This document shows positions 2,660 through 39,753 of a DNA stretch of 64,000 nucleotides, piece after piece. Both the position numbers and the translations under genes were made by a program. The notes below the pieces were generated by a model, which ran no database searches, was not told where the DNA came from, and saw only the letters and a program-made list of their open reading frames with translations. The DNA is from Acidobacteriota bacterium (GTDB taxonomy: Bacteria > Acidobacteriota > UBA6911). Each line of letters begins with the position of its first letter. Position 1 is the first letter of the stretch. Location of the stretch: the NCBI GenBank assembly GCA_031271905.1, contig JAISUT010000028.1, positions 1 to 64,000 on the forward strand, in the 5' to 3' direction.

Positions 2660-3676
2660 ATGAAAAACGGTATCGGTTTCAAAGGGTTGTTCATTTTGTC
2701 GGCGCTGGCCATGTGCCTGTTTCTCGTGGGATGCGGCGGCGGGTCTTCCGACGGCGGGTCTTCCAACACCGGGCCTTCGACCGGTGGGGGTTCTTCCAAA
2801 GACCAGCCGTTCACCGTGACCGCCACGGCGCTTTCCTCCAGCAGCATAAAGGTGTCGTGGACCGAGTCGCCGGGCACCGCATCCTACTGGGTTTTTTACT
2901 CCGACAAGGCGAACGCCACGGACATGGACACGCAGATGGTCTATAGCGGGTCGGCGACCGACCGGAGCTACACCATGACGGGGTTGAACCCCGGCACCAC
3001 CTATTATTTCCGGGTGTACCTGGACGGCAACATGGCGTTGTACTGGAGCACGAGCGCCACGACCCTCTCCGGCGCGGCGGCAGGGAACGGCATCGAGGTC
3101 TACAACTACTCCGTCTACCAGAACGACCCGATCACCAGCATCCGCGTGTACGACTCCACGGGCGCGAAGGTGGATGAATACGACGCGGGGCAGGTTGGCG
3201 ACGGGGAGGTGCGCGAGTTCGCCGACCTGCCCGCCGGGGCTTACCGGGTCGAGATAGAGGACGACTACGGTTACACGGGGACGTTCAAGTCCACTTCGTT
3301 CACGGTGGACGCGGACGCCTGGGTGCGGGTCACCTACACCGGGGACGGCGTCATCGTCACCGGCGGCATCCCCGCCTCGGACATCCAGGGGATTTACGAG
3401 ACGACCGCCGATTTCGGCGCGGGTACCGCGACTTACGACGTGCTCCTCGCCTCGAACGGCACCTACTTCGCCACCCGCCTGGACGACGGCGACGTAATCG
3501 TGGAGGTGGGCGCGTATTCCGTGAGCGGCGGCATCGTCTCCTTCACCCCGGACAAGGTGTGGAGCGACGCCGACGGCGAGCTGGCCGACGCCTCGTCCTC
3601 GGATGCGTACAAGGGGACGTACAACGCCTCGAACCAGGTGTTGACCGCCCGCAACGTGTCGTGGGAAAAGCTGTGA
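2660..3676 (+). CDS. Fibronectin type III lipoprotein, copy 2
   Basis: This is a 338-residue paralogue of the preceding gene, starting at ATG 2660 behind AAAAGGAGG. The lipobox is LVGC (Cys25), followed by a Gly/Ser-rich linker. The fibronectin III-like domain (about 45-125: SIKVSWTESPGTASYWVFY, YTMTGLNPGTTYYFRVYL) and the C-terminal module are conserved. The block encoding VTYTGDGVIVTGGIPASDIQ and the following ETTADFGAG is nearly identical to copy 1 at DNA level, while the linker and the 50 residues after the FN3 domain differ more. It is probably co-transcribed with or regulated like copy 1. Its stop codon lies directly against a dispersed repeat. The function is unknown. Confidence 0.8.
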   Translation: MKNGIGFKGLFILSALAMCLFLVGCGGGSSDGGSSNTGPSTGGGSSKDQPFTVTATALSSSSIKVSWTESPGTASYWVFYSDKANATDMDTQMVYSGSATDRSYTMTGLNPGTTYYFRVYLDGNMALYWSTSATTLSGAAAGNGIEVYNYSVYQNDPITSIRVYDSTGAKVDEYDAGQVGDGEVREFADLPAGAYRVEIEDDYGYTGTFKSTSFTVDADAWVRVTYTGDGVIVTGGIPASDIQGIYETTADFGAGTATYDVLLASNGTYFATRLDDGDVIVEVGAYSVSGGIVSFTPDKVWSDADGELADASSSDAYKGTYNASNQVLTARNVSWEKL

Positions 3677-3798
3677 AGGGCACCTCTAAAAGCTCGCAGA
3701 CAAGGCGTCGCCGCAAATCGAAAAGCGGAGTTTACCAAGGTAAATGAGCATTTTCGATCAAGGCGCAACGCAGCGTCCGGGGTTTTTAGAGGTTCCCT
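3677..3798. repeat. Dispersed gene-end repeat, long form (copy A)
   Basis: The ends are AGGGCACCTCTAAAA (from 3677) and TTTTTAGAGGTTCCCT (to 3798), an imperfect terminal inverted repeat. Inside, the family core is split by a central hairpin (ATCGAAAA at about 3717-3724 with TTTTCGAT at about 3751-3758, and GTTTACC with GGTAAA at the tip). The central segment is flanked by a direct CAAGGCG at 3701-3707 and 3759-3765. The element begins immediately after the stop of the second lipoprotein gene. Confidence 0.85.
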
Positions 3799-3932
3799 AA
3801 AAACCATTGGAAAGCTGTGGTAAGGTTAAGGGCGGTCGCGAACACGGCCGCCTTTCTTAATGCGTCATATGCGTCAGGAAAACCGCTGCGACGGGGCATG
3901 CCCGTTTCAGCGGGGGCGAGGGAGGAGTCTTC

Positions 3933-5456
3933 ATGGGAAAGCATACTTTTTGGCGTGCGCTGCTCGGCGTCGTCATGTTGGCGGCGGTCTCGACCGGTGC
4001 GGCGACGGTCGCCGCCAAGGACGCGGCGGGCGAGAGCCCCTTGGTTGACGACAACGGGAATGCCGCGCCTCAAACGGAACCGGCCCCGTTGCGGAACGTC
4101 TTTGACAAGGTCAAGACCCGGTTCAACAGCAAAGCCGGTCCGCTGGTCGATAAAGACGCCGACCTCGTCTTCGACGACGACGCCCGGAAGCTGATCGTCA
4201 AAAACGACCAAAAGCCGTTGGAGGTGGGCTATGGCGACATCCAGCGGGTGGTGTTCGACGTCAGCAGGCACATGCGCGGCGGCGGGCTGGGCGACTTCAT
4301 CGGCGCAGGCAGCGGCGTCGTAAACATAATGTTGCAACACGCCCTGCAGAATCGTGCGGTACAGGACTATTGGTGCTTCATCCAATACAAAAGCGCCGAC
4401 GGCTCCATCCAACCCTACATGCTGGAGATCGACAAAGCGTCATCCCAAGATGCGATAGGGAAGATGCAGGCGGTCTTGGGCGACAAAGTGGAAATTGCGG
4501 AGTTCGCCGAGCAGGCGGAGGCCATCGATCGAAAGACCCTGCCGGACGTCAAGTCGAAGCACAAGCTGCGCGTCGCCTCGACACATCCCCCGGTGCCGGC
4601 AATCCGGCCGGACAAGGCGCTGCTGGTCGTGGTCTGCCCTCGGTTGGCGGCGCGCAAAGGCGGCGGGATCCAGAACAAGCTCCATGCCAACGACCATGTG
4701 GTCGCCGTCAACACCATGGGCACTTACGGCTTCGCCTACCTCGACCCCGGCGAATACCTGCTGGCGACGGAGTCCCGGGGCGGCGCCAGCGGCTTTCGGA
4801 TGCGGCTCGAGGCGGGAGAGGATTACTACTTCCTCCAAAATGCCGTCAACGCCGCCACGACATCCTTGTCGAGGCAGACGAAGGAGTTGGTGATGTACGA
4901 GTTGAGCGGATCGTTCTTCGCCGACTGGCAGCGCAAGGCGGGGTCGGGTGACGACGAAACCGACGAGGATTCCGTGCAGGCCGCGTTCGGCACGGAAGGG
5001 GTGGACGCCAACGGGAACGTCGTCAGCGCCTCGGCGGGTTCCGCGAACCCATGCGGCGCCGTAGAAATCGATTTCTCCGTCAAAACCGACAAAGGGCAGC
5101 ATCCGATCGCCAAGTCCCAGCCGGGGAAGGCGATCGTGTATGTCTTGCGCAAACCCGGAATGACGGGGGCGCTGGTGCAGACCAAGCTGGCCATGGACGG
5201 CGCCTGGATGGGGGCGAACCAGCGCAACGGCTATTTCTTCTTCGCCGCAGAGCCGGGGGCGCATTCTTTCTGCTCGGTGGTCAAGGCTGGCAGCTCCATC
5301 CTCCAGATTGAGCTGGAGCCGGACAAGACCTATTACCTGGAGCAAAAAATCCAACTGAGCACAAAGGAGCCGACCGTCCTGACGCAACTTTCGGAGGGCG
5401 AAGGCTTGCGCTTGCTAGGTAAAAACCATTATAGCGTCATCGAGGAGAAGAAATGA
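3933..5456 (+). CDS. Secreted protein with two DUF2846-like modules
   Basis: The 507-residue product starts at ATG 3933 behind GGGAGGAG. An N-terminal signal peptide (hydrophobic about 8-26) predicts export. Two similar beta-sandwich-like modules are visible at about 225-330 (RPDKALLVVVCPR, MGTYGFAYLDPGEYLLAT) and about 396-490 (QPGKAIVYVLRKPG, NGYFFFAAEPGAHSFCSVV). They match the 'GKAxVYVxR ... G.Y.....PG.H' pattern of DUF2846. Residues about 50-220 are an unassigned domain. The stop overlaps the start of the PEGA gene by four bases (ATGA), so the two are translationally coupled. The biochemical role is unknown; an envelope or surface role fits the neighbours. Confidence 0.7.
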   Translation: MGKHTFWRALLGVVMLAAVSTGAATVAAKDAAGESPLVDDNGNAAPQTEPAPLRNVFDKVKTRFNSKAGPLVDKDADLVFDDDARKLIVKNDQKPLEVGYGDIQRVVFDVSRHMRGGGLGDFIGAGSGVVNIMLQHALQNRAVQDYWCFIQYKSADGSIQPYMLEIDKASSQDAIGKMQAVLGDKVEIAEFAEQAEAIDRKTLPDVKSKHKLRVASTHPPVPAIRPDKALLVVVCPRLAARKGGGIQNKLHANDHVVAVNTMGTYGFAYLDPGEYLLATESRGGASGFRMRLEAGEDYYFLQNAVNAATTSLSRQTKELVMYELSGSFFADWQRKAGSGDDETDEDSVQAAFGTEGVDANGNVVSASAGSANPCGAVEIDFSVKTDKGQHPIAKSQPGKAIVYVLRKPGMTGALVQTKLAMDGAWMGANQRNGYFFFAAEPGAHSFCSVVKAGSSILQIELEPDKTYYLEQKIQLSTKEPTVLTQLSEGEGLRLLGKNHYSVIEEKK

Positions 5457-12365: not shown

Positions 12366-12803
12366 CTATTTCACCCCTTCTATCCAAGCGGCGCTGTCGT
12401 CGGCGACTTCTCCGTCGGCGTAGAACTCCTTCTTCCAGATCGGGACGATCTGCTTGATGGTGTCGATGGCGTAGCGACAGGCGTCAAACGCCGCTACACG
12501 GTGCGCGGAGGCGACGACGATCAGCGTGCTGCATTCGCCGACCTCCATGCGCCCCAAGCGGTGTACGATGGCGATGCCCAGGATGTCGAACTTCTCCTTC
12601 GCCAGCGCCCCCACCTCCTCCAGCTTCTTGAGCGCCATCGGCTCGTAAGCTTCGTATTCGAGGTGGCGCACCGCCTTGTCCCGCGCATTGTCGCGCACGA
12701 CCCCCTCGAAGACCACCAGCGCCCCGGACCCGCCGCCCTGCGCCGACTGCAAAGCCCTTACGACCTTGCCCGAATCGATAACCTCGTGTGTAAGCTGGAA
12801 CAT
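12366..12803 (-). CDS. moaE: Molybdopterin synthase catalytic subunit MoaE
   Basis: The 145-residue protein is the large subunit of molybdopterin synthase, which moves sulfur from MoaD onto cyclic pyranopterin monophosphate. Family marks are GALVVFEGVVRDNARDK, LEYEAYEPMALKKL, VHRLGRMEVGE and the lysine-bearing IDTIKQIVPIWKKEFYADG. It begins at ATG 12803 behind AGGACTG and lies 54 bases downstream of moaD in the same direction, so the two subunits are probably co-transcribed. The genes for the earlier step (moaA) and for sulfuration lie elsewhere. Confidence 0.95.
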   Translation of the reverse strand: MFQLTHEVIDSGKVVRALQSAQGGGSGALVVFEGVVRDNARDKAVRHLEYEAYEPMALKKLEEVGALAKEKFDILGIAIVHRLGRMEVGECSTLIVVASAHRVAAFDACRYAIDTIKQIVPIWKKEFYADGEVADDSAAWIEGVK

Positions 12804-12857: not shown

Positions 12858-13103
12858 TTAACCGCCGCTGACGGGGGGGAGAAACGCGACCTCGTCCCCG
12901 TCCTCGACCGGCGAGGACGGGCGGGCGAACTCGGAGTTCAGCGCAAAAAGGAGCGAGGCTCGATGACCCTCCAACTCCGGGAATTCCGCAACGAATTTGT
13001 CGAATATCGAGGCGACGTCGGAAACCCCGGCGGACTCCACCGTGCGCTCCCTCCCGCCGACGACATCTGCCAGCGATGCAAAAAACAGGACGCGAATGCT
13101 CAT
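12858..13103 (-). CDS. moaD: Molybdopterin synthase sulfur carrier subunit MoaD
   Basis: The 81-residue ubiquitin-fold protein ends in the required Gly-Gly (FLPPVSGG), whose C-terminus is adenylated and thiocarboxylated. The N-terminal MSIRVLFFASLADVVG and the DGDEVAFLPPVSGG end are typical. It lies 17 bases downstream of dacB and just upstream of moaE. An obvious ribosome-binding site is lacking, so its translation may depend on dacB read-through. Confidence 0.93.
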   Translation of the reverse strand: MSIRVLFFASLADVVGGRERTVESAGVSDVASIFDKFVAEFPELEGHRASLLFALNSEFARPSSPVEDGDEVAFLPPVSGG

Positions 13104-20416: not shown

Positions 20417-21517
20417 TCAGGCGCGGGACGCTTGCGACGGCGCGTCGCCGATGGACTCGCCACGGCGCAGGCGTTCACGCAGGCTCTGGAGCTGCCGGTC
20501 GATGCGCTCCAGTTCGACCAACGCCTTCTTCTCCGCCTCCGAAGTCCGCAGCACCGCTTGGATGCCGCCGCCGCAGATGACCAGCCGCTGGTCGGCCATC
20601 AGGGCGAGGATGGGGTCGTGCGTGGCCATCAGCACGATCTTCTCCCGGCGCACCAGCAGATCCAGCGCCTGCTTGCGGTCGATGCCCGCGTTCTCGATCT
20701 CGTCGATCAGCACGATGGGTGACGCGCTCAGAAACGCCGTGTCGGCTATCATCAGCGCCCGCGACTGCCCGCCCGAAAGGGAGGTCAGCGGTGCGTCCGC
20801 CGCAAAAGCCTCCCCCGCCAGCAGGTTCGCCTTGGCGATGACGTCGGCAACGAGCCTTTCCGAGGCGCCGCCGGCCGTGTCGCGCGACGTTGCGGCAGAC
20901 CGCCGGCTCTCGGCGTGCATGCGGACGAACTCCCCGGCGCTCGCGTCCATGACGAAATTCATGTTCTGCGAAAGTTGCGCCACCAGCTTGCGCCCTGGGG
21001 AGAAGCGGCTGCGGAGGTCGGGCGGCTCGCCGTTGACCAGGACGACGCGACCCGTGGGGGTGTCCCCCTGCGCCATCCACTCGATGTCGGCCAGCAGGCG
21101 GCTCTTGCCCGACCCGGTGGGACCGACGATGCCGGTGACGCTGCCAACCGGCAGCTCCAGCCGGACGTCCTCCGCGTTGCCGGACTTGTCGCGCCCGCCG
21201 ACGACCGTGATCGAGCGCACCTGGGCGCGCGCGCCGTCAGCCGCGCCTCGGGCGTCGGAAACCCGGGCGGCGAGGAAAAACCCGAGGTTGGCCTCCAGAC
21301 GCCGCCGGTCGATGCCGATGTCCTCGAACAGCTCCTCGGGCAACTCCGCGAGCCGCCGCCGGAGCGAGACCCCCGCCTGCGGCCCAAGGCGTATGCCGTA
21401 ATCCTCCAAGAAGCGGAGGACTTCGGGACGAGACCCGGCAAGGGCTTGCACGTCCGCGTCGAGGATCGCGTCGGGAGGGGCGTCAGCGGCAGACGCCTCC
21501 CGGAGTGGCTCGTTCAT
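20417..21517 (-). CDS. Soluble ABC-type ATPase with N-terminal DUF1858-like domain
   Basis: The 366-residue protein starts at ATG 21517 behind GGAAAG, inside the end of the upstream gene (35-base overlap). Residues about 16-80 (DADVQALAGSRPEVLRFLED, YGIRLGP, LFEDIGIDRRRLEANLG) resemble the DUF1858/ScdA N-terminal fold. The ABC domain has Walker A GPTGSGKS (132-139), signature LSGGQ (247-251), Walker B IVLIDE (268-273) and switch His300. There are no membrane segments and no permease gene nearby. With the two upstream genes it forms a compact cassette; I infer an energy-driven soluble machine rather than an importer. The substrate is unknown. The 140-base gap to proA holds nothing recognisable. 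Confidence 0.75.
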   Translation of the reverse strand: MNEPLREASAADAPPDAILDADVQALAGSRPEVLRFLEDYGIRLGPQAGVSLRRRLAELPEELFEDIGIDRRRLEANLGFFLAARVSDARGAADGARAQVRSITVVGGRDKSGNAEDVRLELPVGSVTGIVGPTGSGKSRLLADIEWMAQGDTPTGRVVLVNGEPPDLRSRFSPGRKLVAQLSQNMNFVMDASAGEFVRMHAESRRSAATSRDTAGGASERLVADVIAKANLLAGEAFAADAPLTSLSGGQSRALMIADTAFLSASPIVLIDEIENAGIDRKQALDLLVRREKIVLMATHDPILALMADQRLVICGGGIQAVLRTSEAEKKALVELERIDRQLQSLRERLRRGESIGDAPSQASRA

Positions 21518-22517
21518 TGATCTTTCCAAAATCGAGGTTGTCGAGGTACAGGCGGGCGAAATCCGCCTCCATCCGCCCAAGACCCGTTTCGAGCTCGCCG
21601 AAGTCGGCGAGGGAATAGGAGGTCTCGCCGTCCAGGTCGCCGGGGAGGATGCAGCCGCCGCGGAGCAGCGCGCGGAACTCGTCGTTCCAGAACTGGTCGA
21701 TGACCGGACGGCACTCCTCCAGGCGGGACGTGCGCGCCACCATCATGACGGGGTTGAGCAGCCGCCCCTCCTTCATCGCGGGGACGCGCACCTTCTTGTG
21801 CGACGGGATGCGCGCCACCGCCACGTCTGGCAGCAGGCTGTAGGCCGTCCTGTGCGGGTCGCCCGAGCCGAAGCGCTTGATCGTCTGCGAGAAGTGCTTG
21901 ATATCGACGACGCTTTTGGCGAAGCGGACGATCCCCTCGTCGCCGAAACGCTCGCGCAGGAAATACATCAGGCCGAACGGCGCCTTGTCCACATGGCCGT
22001 GGACCGTCAGCCCGAGGCCGGAGTCCAGCAGCTCCGCCCAGGAATCGACGGCGGGGACGCCGGGGACGGTCAGGTCTTGCACCACGCTCCAGGACATGAA
22101 GCAGAGGATGCCGATGCCGCTCCGCAGGACGCCCGCGCGGATCTTCTCCGGCAGCGCGTCGAGGTCGTCCGGGCGGGTGAGGCCGGTGTACAGGCCGGTC
22201 TTCAGGAAGCGGTCGGAAAAGCCGTGCGTGAAAAAGACGCTGTAGTTGTTGGTCACGATGACGTCGGGGAAGTCGCCCTCCTCGCGCCGGGCGCGCAACA
22301 GGAACTCGATGTCCTGCGAGGCGCAGTCGGTGAGGTCGGAGCAGGAGACGGGCTTGTCGGGACGCTCGGCGTTGTACCGTTCGACGAACGGCGCGAAGAA
22401 CTGCTTGAAAGGGACCTTCAAGGGGCAGGGCATCGACACATGGACGCGGACGCCGTCGCGCAGGCGCGGGTCTTCGACATATGCCGGAGCGCCTTCCTCA
22501 AGGATGTTGATTCTCAT
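21483..22517 (-). CDS. Solute-binding-protein-like cytoplasmic protein
   Basis: The 344-residue protein starts at ATG 22517 behind AAAGGGGGG. It has the two-lobe pattern of type II extracellular solute-binding proteins (PFVERYNAERPDKPVSC, DFPDVIVTNNYSVFF, VPAVDSWAELLDSGLGLTVH, GLMYFLRERFG, VIDQFWNDEFRALL). However, there is no signal peptide or lipobox: the N-terminus is MRINILEEGAPAYVED. Three early cysteines (31, 59, 65) sit near the expected ligand cleft. It lies 21 bases after the GTPase gene and overlaps the ATPase gene, so the three are almost certainly co-translated. It probably binds a small molecule or metal complex in the cytoplasm; that is inference. Confidence 0.65.
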   Translation of the reverse strand: MRINILEEGAPAYVEDPRLRDGVRVHVSMPCPLKVPFKQFFAPFVERYNAERPDKPVSCSDLTDCASQDIEFLLRARREEGDFPDVIVTNNYSVFFTHGFSDRFLKTGLYTGLTRPDDLDALPEKIRAGVLRSGIGILCFMSWSVVQDLTVPGVPAVDSWAELLDSGLGLTVHGHVDKAPFGLMYFLRERFGDEGIVRFAKSVVDIKHFSQTIKRFGSGDPHRTAYSLLPDVAVARIPSHKKVRVPAMKEGRLLNPVMMVARTSRLEECRPVIDQFWNDEFRALLRGGCILPGDLDGETSYSLADFGELETGLGRMEADFARLYLDNLDFGKINERATPGGVCR

Positions 22518-22538
22518 ACGTCCCCCCTTTCGAACCTC

Positions 22539-23225
22539 TTACGAAAATCCTATCTTCTTCAGGTTTCCCACCTGGTACTCGCCGCCGATCTTGGTCTCGC
22601 CCAGGCAGTAGGAGCAGAGCGCCGCAGGCATCGAGAAGCGCAGGCGGCTCTCCTCCACCGTCGCGGTCTCAGGCGCGTCCCCGACGAGGCGCGCCAGCTC
22701 GAACACCCCCTGACCGCTGATGCCGTTGACAAGCAGCAGCCGCGCCTTGGGGTTGGCCTCCGCCACGCGGAAGGCGAACACCTCGCGCTCGGCCTGTGAC
22801 ACAATATCATATTTTGTAATGATTACAATGTCAGCCATCCGCAACATGGGGCCGATCTTGCGCGGGGTGTCCATCCCCATCAGGTTGTCGATGACGCAGA
22901 CCGCCGCCACGTCCCGGACGTGCGGCGAGCAGCGGTTGCACAGCCCCGCGCTCTCGGTGAAAAGGTACCCGAGTCGCAGGCCGAGGCCCCAGTCCACCCC
23001 CTCCTGGATGTTGCTGACGAAGAAATGGTCGGGGCAGAGCCCGCCCGCCAGACCCACCCGGACGGGGACGCCCATCCGCTCGAACAGCGCCGCCTCGTTG
23101 GCGTACAGGCAGTCGAACTTGATCACGCCGGCGGACTCCCCCGTGCGCGCCAGCTCCTGGATGAGCTTGGCGAGCACGGAGGTCTTGCCCGACGACGGCG
23201 GCCCTGAAAACGTGACGAGTTTCAT
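22539..23225 (-). CDS. G3E-type (HypB/UreG/CobW-like) GTPase with Cys-X2-Cys motifs
   Basis: The 228-residue P-loop protein starts at ATG 23225 (an earlier in-frame start at 23258 lacks a site). It has Walker A GPPSSGKT (8-15) and a hydrophobic strand ending in an ExxG motif, GYLFTESAGL (86-95), the Walker B hallmark of the G3E family. CNRC (96-99) follows at once, then a hydrophobic VCVID strand (109-113), the base-specificity motif TKYD (137-140) and a C-terminal CSYC (204-207). G3E members (HypB, UreG, CobW, MeaB) deliver or guard metals and cofactors for enzymes. The cysteine pairs could bind a metal. It is the first gene of the three-gene cassette; the target is unknown. Confidence 0.75.
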   Translation of the reverse strand: MKLVTFSGPPSSGKTSVLAKLIQELARTGESAGVIKFDCLYANEAALFERMGVPVRVGLAGGLCPDHFFVSNIQEGVDWGLGLRLGYLFTESAGLCNRCSPHVRDVAAVCVIDNLMGMDTPRKIGPMLRMADIVIITKYDIVSQAEREVFAFRVAEANPKARLLLVNGISGQGVFELARLVGDAPETATVEESRLRFSMPAALCSYCLGETKIGGEYQVGNLKKIGFS

Positions 23226-38661: not shown

Positions 38662-39753
38662 TCACCGCTCCGATTCCGACAACGACCCTGCGCCGCCGCC
38701 CCGGCGCACCTTGACCAGCTCGGCGGCGATGGCGAGCGCGATCTCCTCCGGCGACTCAGCCTGGATGTCCAGGCCGATCGGGGCGTGGACGCGCTTGAGC
38801 AGCTCCTCGGATATCCCCTCCTCGTCGCGGAAGCGGATGAAGCACGCCTTGATGCGGCGGCGGCTCCCGATCATGCCGATGTAGCGCGCGTTGCTGCGAA
38901 TGACCTCGCGCAGGCAGGGCTCGTCGAACTGGTGCCCGCGCGTGATCAGCACGATGTAGGTCTGCGGCGTGATCTCCAGGCCGCGCAACGTCTCCGCCAT
39001 GTCGCCCACCAACACCTCGTCGGCGTCCGGGAAGCGCTCGCGGTTGGCGTACACGACGCGGTCGTCCATCACGGTGGTGTGGAAGCCCAGGATCTTCGTG
39101 AAGGCGGCCAAGGGGATCGCCAGGTGCCCCGCGCCGACGATGACCACCTTGCGCACCGCCGTCATGACCTCGAAGAAGACCTCGGCCTTGCGCCCGCCGG
39201 AAAGCTCCAGCGTGGTGCGCAGGCAGTCCTCCCGCTCCTCGCGGACAGCCGCCTCCCTCAAGATCGCCGCCTGCAGCCCCGCATCCCGTATGTCCCCGCA
39301 ACGGACCTCTCCGTTGCGGACCAGACACTTGTCCCCCGGCGCGGCGTCCGCCACGCCATCCACCGACAGGACGGACGCCAGCACCGCCGCATTGCCGACC
39401 CTGGCTATCTCCTCCAACTCGCCGGCGAGCCGCACCGCCACGCCAGAGTCCTTGCCCCATGTGTCGATGAAGGCGTCCAGCACCCCGCCGCACACGGCGG
39501 GGCTGTCGGACTCGATGTCGTCCAAGAGCTCGACCTTGACCATCTCCGGCTTGCGGGAGCGGATCGCCTCCACCGCGCGGCGACGGACCTCGGCCTCGCC
39601 GCAACCGCCGCCGATGGTCCCCAATATCTCGCCCGACGCGGTGACGATCATCTTGGCGCCGACCTCCCTGGGGGTGGAGCCGAGCGTCGAAACGATGGTG
39701 GCGACGGCGAGCGTCTCACCCTCCGCCAAAAGCTGCTTTATCTGTTGGTACAT
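38662..39753 (-). CDS. xdhC: XdhC/CoxI-family molybdenum hydroxylase maturation protein
   Basis: The 363-residue protein starts at ATG 39753, with GGAAAGGAAGGGG upstream. The N-terminal XdhC/CoxI domain has ATIVSTLGSTPREVGAKMIV and TIGGGCGEAEV. The C-terminal Rossmann domain has VRKVVIVGAGHLAIPLAAFT and YIGMIGSRRR. XdhC binds molybdenum cofactor, oversees its sulfuration and inserts it into xanthine-dehydrogenase-type enzymes. No such hydroxylase is in the window. It heads the xdhC-SDR-ykgJ-lhr run and is divergent from the aspartase-like gene. Confidence 0.88.
   Translation of the reverse strand: MYQQIKQLLAEGETLAVATIVSTLGSTPREVGAKMIVTASGEILGTIGGGCGEAEVRRRAVEAIRSRKPEMVKVELLDDIESDSPAVCGGVLDAFIDTWGKDSGVAVRLAGELEEIARVGNAAVLASVLSVDGVADAAPGDKCLVRNGEVRCGDIRDAGLQAAILREAAVREEREDCLRTTLELSGGRKAEVFFEVMTAVRKVVIVGAGHLAIPLAAFTKILGFHTTVMDDRVVYANRERFPDADEVLVGDMAETLRGLEITPQTYIVLITRGHQFDEPCLREVIRSNARYIGMIGSRRRIKACFIRFRDEEGISEELLKRVHAPIGLDIQAESPEEIALAIAAELVKVRRGGGAGSLSESER

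Follow-up and report, generated by a model that had tools for sequence, protein, structure and literature searches.

A permease-less gene cassette of a UreG/HypB-like GTPase, a cytoplasmic binding-like protein and an ABC ATPase, and its association with nitrogenase

The cassette and its surroundings

The window analyzed here is a stretch of 64,000 nucleotides from an Acidobacteriota bacterium (contig JAISUT010000028.1, positions 1 to 64,000). Positions 20417-23225 hold three closely packed, complete genes on the minus strand, which encode, in this order, a GTPase, a substrate-binding-like protein and an ABC ATPase (Table 1). The binding-protein gene starts 21 bp after the GTPase gene, has a good ribosome-binding site (AAAGGGGGG) and is overlapped by 35 bp by the ATPase gene, for which the best start is an ATG downstream of the listed TTG at 21580. 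The same-strand run that leads into the trio is hrpB-moaA-SGNH hydrolase-gpsA, and proA faces the trio (all of these names except moaA were assigned by inspection). No permease gene is adjacent to the trio in the window.

Table 1. Genes of the cassette and molybdenum-related genes elsewhere in the window
Feature	Position	Strand	Remarks
G3E-type GTPase (UreG/HypB-like)	22539-23225	-	228 aa; ATG at 23225, stop at 22539; Pfam cobW 5e-11
Substrate-binding-like protein, cytoplasmic by sequence	21483-22517	-	344 aa; SBP_bac_6 2e-22
Soluble ABC ATPase	20417-21517	-	366 aa; ATG at 21517, stop at 20417; ABC_tran 9e-13
moaA	25215-26384	-	molybdopterin gene
moaE	12366-12803	-	molybdopterin gene
moaD	12858-13103	-	molybdopterin gene
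XdhC-family aldehyde oxidoreductase maturation factor relative	38662-39753	-	further molybdo/tungstoenzyme accessory gene

A sequence-only reading of this locus had described the three genes as an intracellular machine without a permease. The genes are real, and no membrane partner of the ATPase lies next to them. Composition does not support a recent foreign origin, as the GC3 of the trio (0.88-0.90) is the same as that of the neighbouring genes; despite this neighbour-like GC3, the GTPase tree groups the window GTPase with those of Bacteroidales, with identities of up to 82%. A role in anti-phage defence was also rejected, because a PADLOC search gave only generic ATPase or P-loop matches for single proteins and no whole-system match. 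As a separate observation, molybdopterin genes lie within about 8 kb on either side of the cassette, and a relative of the XdhC family is encoded further along the window (Table 1).

Features of the three proteins

The GTPase scored above the gathering threshold for PF02492 (cobW/HypB/UreG). Its motifs comprise a GPPSSGKT P-loop, LCPDH, ESAGLCNRCSP (G3 plus CxxC), TKxD and a C-terminal ALCSYCLGE. In alignment A1 the P-loop is conserved, ESAGLCNRCSP is invariant, and so are five cysteines and a histidine (C59, H62, C91, C94, C199 and C202). The guanine-specificity position reads TKYD in the window GTPase and TKGD in its relatives, as opposed to the canonical NKxD; TKxD is found in some true GTPases. 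The PDB relatives are UreG and HypB, with which the protein shares its Pfam family, the P-loop and an ESxG-type G3, and C59 (of LCPDH) aligned with the Cys of the nickel-binding CPH motif of UreG. However, it belongs to neither family by the curated models: it has CPDH instead of CPH and scored 31 bits against a cut-off of 204.2 for TIGR00101 (UreG), and 43 bits against 121.2 for TIGR00073 (HypB). No NCBIfam model cut-off was reached by either the GTPase or the binding protein. The cassette GTPase further differs from UreG and HypB in the additional CxxC after G3, the C-terminal CxxC and the TKxD motif, and it is encoded with a cytosolic binding-like protein and an ABC ATPase, where UreG and HypB have urease or hydrogenase accessory proteins as partners. 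Its predicted structure (pLDDT 62) was too weak for use. The motifs and family match support its assignment to the metallochaperone (UreG/HypB) class with a putative metal-type Cys/His site, in agreement with the class proposed earlier.

The binding protein was confidently predicted to adopt a type II binding-protein fold (AF2 model, pLDDT 90.8). A Foldseek search returned TbpA, FbpA and FutA, i.e., thiamin- and ferric-binding proteins, as the nearest folds, with a TM-score of about 0.6 for FbpA/FutA (SBP_bac_6). The closest metal-binding folds are iron binders, not molybdate binders, which counts against a molybdenum cargo. Pro30, Cys31, His208 and Pro230 are invariant in an alignment (A2) that covers both cassette types described below. 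In the model, Cys31 lies at the start of the first long helix and His208 just before a helix of the second half, positions that may correspond to where such proteins usually hold ligands. The invariant Pro-Cys and His, kept across the family, are not shared with FbpA and FutA, from which the protein also differs in having no signal peptide and no cognate permease in its unit. In a hydropathy test, a hydrophobic N-terminus was found in 0/32 type-B binding proteins, the window's included, and in 2/57 of type A, compared with 20/25 periplasmic FecB-type proteins and 11/12 ModA proteins used as controls. The absence of a signal peptide therefore stands. The earlier reading had named an exported form of the binding protein as a finding against the intracellular machine, and the hydropathy test gave none in type B.

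The ABC ATPase has an N-terminal domain of about 80 residues, followed by intact Walker A, LSGGQ, Walker B, D-loop and H-loop motifs. Residues conserved in alignment A3 include GPTGSGKS, LSGGQSRAL, DEIENAGI and H299. The unit therefore has the functional ATPase motifs of an ABC importer (Walker A, LSGGQ, Walker B and H-loop, all conserved), but neither an exported binding protein nor a cognate permease. In both respects it differs from ModABC, a membrane-bound importer whose binding protein is exported. SufC of the SufBCD system for Fe-S assembly is an ABC ATPase that is active in the cytosol without a permease (PMC9164220), and the cassette ATPase resembles it in this regard. Unlike the situation in SufBCD, however, the cassette ATPase carries its own N-terminal domain and is partnered with a binding-protein fold; no SufB or SufD partner was recognised among the neighbours, which were read by eye, in the cassettes inspected.

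Distribution, two types and the link with nitrogenase

The cassette is widespread, which extends the earlier reading. A scan of genome contigs with the GTPase alignment yielded at least 537 relatives; the scan with the binding protein alone gave no match, and none was found on plasmids. All three genes were called together in 81 of the 95 loci inspected. Among the loci without a full trio call, several are misses of the gene caller, L037 contains only the GTPase, and L094 seems to be disrupted; this last locus (2913-4342, from a Lachnospiraceae MAG) combines an intact GTPase gene with fragmented ATPase and binding-protein genes, owing to either decay or an assembly error. In the phylum of the window's genome, 15 of 396 genomes have a GTPase relative, and the cassette is absent from the related genomes of its genus and family. 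No description of this gene combination was found among open-licence papers.

In the GTPase tree, one group, designated type A (57 loci), is set apart from all others with a support of 100/97. Its binding protein has a DUF1858-like N-terminal domain (confirmed with Pfam for L023), and a similar domain is present on the ATPase. In type B, to which the window's cassette belongs, the binding protein mostly lacks the DUF1858 domain. A zinc-ribbon-like protein of 80 residues (MHDGC...CxxC...CPxC...), without a Pfam match, is encoded after the ATPase in 24 type-A loci (L035, 2552-2794, and 23 others). A third, more distant variant (L031, 7769-11192; L032, 141-2423) consists of a short ABC ATPase, a GTPase 38% identical to the window's and an Fe-S protein, with no binding protein; L031 also contains a cysteine desulfurase gene.

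The neighbours of type A include the hybrid-cluster protein (HCP) in 11/57 loci and Crp/Fnr-type regulators in 10/57, with YgbA_NO and NifU-C genes in others. HCP follows the cassette directly or one gene later in L056, L057, L082, L098, L104, L107, L111, L114 and L116. This adjacency suggests a link of type A with Hcp or nitrosative stress in Clostridia and their relatives. HCP was nevertheless ruled out as a general client of the family, since it is present in only 1 of 11 Acidobacteriota with type A.

The co-occurrence of type B with nitrogen fixation genes is strong. With TIGR01290, every one of the 35 type-B host genomes tested proved to carry nifB, compared with 10 of 53 type-A hosts (Fisher p = 8e-16, a value that overstates independence because hosts are related within clades). 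Thirty-three type-B genomes were tested first, and all were positive; the remaining two contain the untyped loci L069 and L094, which the GTPase tree had placed with type B before the nifB test, and both were positive. The type-B hosts belong to eight phyla (Acidobacteriota, Bacteroidota, Chlorobiota, Bacillota, Spirochaetota, Pseudomonadota, Thermodesulfobacteriota and Myxococcota). Within samples that include the genomes used as centres, type B occurs in 2/6 nifB-positive and 0/390 nifB-negative Acidobacteriota, and in 2/11 nifB-positive and 0/118 nifB-negative Bacteroidales. Because four of those six Acidobacteriota and nine of those eleven Bacteroidales have no type B, the cassette is not essential for diazotrophs generally. 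Three genomes of the window's genus (G002, G003 and G005) contain a NifB relative and no type-B cassette, and are natural comparison genomes.

The window's genome has a nifHDK-EN-B cluster on a contig (C53) other than that of the cassette. There, nifH, nifD, nifK and nifE scored above curated cut-offs and nifB is present, and a NifN-type protein scored below its cut-off; if this protein is accepted, the genome would contain the full set of the six-gene criterion for diazotrophy (PMC3464626). No nifQ was found in this genome or in 29 of 33 type-B hosts. In the other four (three Pseudomonadota and one Desulfuromonadales) nifQ is present alongside type B, and a strict replacement of NifQ by type B is therefore unsupported.

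We searched every fetched locus for NifA sites (TGT-N10-ACA) that precede a strong sigma-54 promoter by 50-220 bp. Three distinct pairs were found in about 3.5 million strand-bases. Two of them immediately precede a type-B cassette, one in L067 (Propionivibrio) and one in L090 (Tolumonas), and the third, the sole other one in the scan, is at the nifB gene of L067. L054 has two UAS and no strong sigma-54 site, and the scan detected no NifA/sigma-54 site upstream of the window's cassette.

The genes around 31 type-B cassettes include ModA/ModB in eight loci, NifB in five, NifDK/EN in three and a FecCD importer in ten, and TonB receptors are also found nearby. In L045, the genes for ModA-ModB-ATPase-AnfO-GTPase-ATPase-SBP form a same-strand run. 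A TOBE-TOBE molbindin gene follows the trio in L040, a PBP_like/HTH regulator is encoded in L064, and ModD in L024. A FecCD importer, a FecB-like binding protein and a SAM methyltransferase recur together in L055 (5309-8911) and similar type-B loci, possibly as a metallophore system. The statement that the ATPase has no membrane partner thus holds for the window but needs qualification among relatives, because 14 of the 31 type-B loci have FecCD or ModB permease genes no more than about 10 kb away. A linked permease had been named as a finding that would speak against the unit; such a link exists in form only, since each of these importers is accompanied by its own binding protein and ATPase. 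For this reason they look like upstream suppliers, and the placement of the trio inside the cell, judged from the missing export signal and the missing permease of the conserved unit, is retained.

Possible function of the cassette

The gene neighbourhoods that accompany the trio (nif and modABC for type B, HCP for some of type A) and the presence of nifB in every type-B host tested tie it to metal-cluster enzymes; they further point to nitrogenase as the most likely client of type B. We consider it about an even bet (roughly 0.5) that the trio is a GTP- and ATP-driven cytosolic carrier which delivers molybdenum to nitrogenase cofactor assembly. Here, molybdate or another molybdenum species would enter through separate importers, and the binding-like protein would hold the metal species in its cleft through the invariant Cys31 and His208. 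The GTPase, acting through CPxH/CxxC, and likewise the ABC ATPase may serve as switches for loading or opening the carrier, so that the metal would be handed over to FeMo-cofactor assembly (NifB/NifEN). What we infer here is that molybdenum is the cargo, that GTP and ATP are both used, that the steps follow this sequence and that NifEN or NifB accepts the metal. Against this reading, the window's cassette is not adjacent to nif genes, and type A, which has the same core, is found mostly in non-diazotrophs.

The proposed role, helping molybdenum to reach nitrogenase, would be comparable to that of NifQ and HesA; hesA and nifQ mutants require high molybdate (PMC6361004). None of the three proteins contains a NifQ (PF04891) or ThiF-type domain, and no sequence relation to NifQ or HesA was found.

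The best-placed alternative, which we regard as possible but decidedly less probable, is that the trio is nitrogenase-linked with iron or an Fe-S species as its cargo, or that its client is the Fe-only (Anf) nitrogenase; it would then be an NTP-driven donor to NifB or AnfDGK. The similarity of the binding protein to FbpA and FutA, the frequent FecCD- and TonB-type importers, the AnfO gene within the L045 run, an Anf nitrogenase in one genome (G318), and the Fe-S genes next to type A and the third variant (NifU-C, FeS domain, cysteine desulfurase) are all consistent with it. However, ModABC, molbindin, ModD and the Mo-type regulators point to molybdenum, and MoFe-type NifDK is the only nitrogenase detected in the window's genome by family searches for nif genes.

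It is unlikely that the cassettes protect or repair metal clusters sensitive to O2 or NO, with type A acting on HCP and nitrosative damage, and type B on nitrogenase. The HCP, Crp/Fnr-type and YgbA_NO neighbours of type A fit such a role, but HCP is missing from most type-A Acidobacteriota, and type B is surrounded by supply genes (ModABC, importers, a TOBE protein) rather than stress genes. Less probable still is a device that senses molybdenum or another metal and controls nitrogenase expression without taking part in cofactor building. ModE-like and PBP_like regulators and AnfO are encoded close by, and binding-protein folds occur in regulators; however, Pfam searches found no DNA-binding or kinase domain in the three proteins, and the cassette itself is apparently a NifA target in two hosts. 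Finally, although SBP_bac_6 and ABC_tran are importer families and importers lie near about half of the type-B loci, we consider it very improbable that the trio is an orphan or leftover part of an ordinary ABC importer with a permease encoded elsewhere, given that the binding protein lacks an export signal in both types, the conserved unit lacks a permease, each linked importer comes with a binding protein and an ATPase of its own, the cassette ATPase bears an additional N-terminal domain, and the GTPase is the most conserved component.

Returning to the molybdenum carrier, a broader and more tentative proposal, to which we give somewhat less than even odds, is that the cassettes represent a new class of intracellular loader, in which a binding protein and an ABC ATPase that resemble those of importers, but lack any membrane part, are coupled to a G3E GTPase and move a metal or cluster precursor onto a metalloenzyme assembly line. 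Type B would deliver molybdenum in diazotrophs that mostly lack NifQ, and type A would serve another anaerobic metal-cluster enzyme. No counterpart was found for the architecture, whereas the proposed job has one in the NTPase metallochaperones; the cassettes would form a new class if the loader mechanism is true. The composition of the trio suggests that parts of an importer, a binding protein and an ABC ATPase, have been redeployed as an intracellular delivery machine. HesA is one candidate for molybdenum supply without NifQ, in Paenibacillus, cyanobacteria and Frankia. The nif-linked trio, present mostly in anaerobes of eight phyla, bears on the route by which molybdenum reaches the cofactor in diazotrophs lacking NifQ, and it could provide missing parts for nitrogenase engineering.
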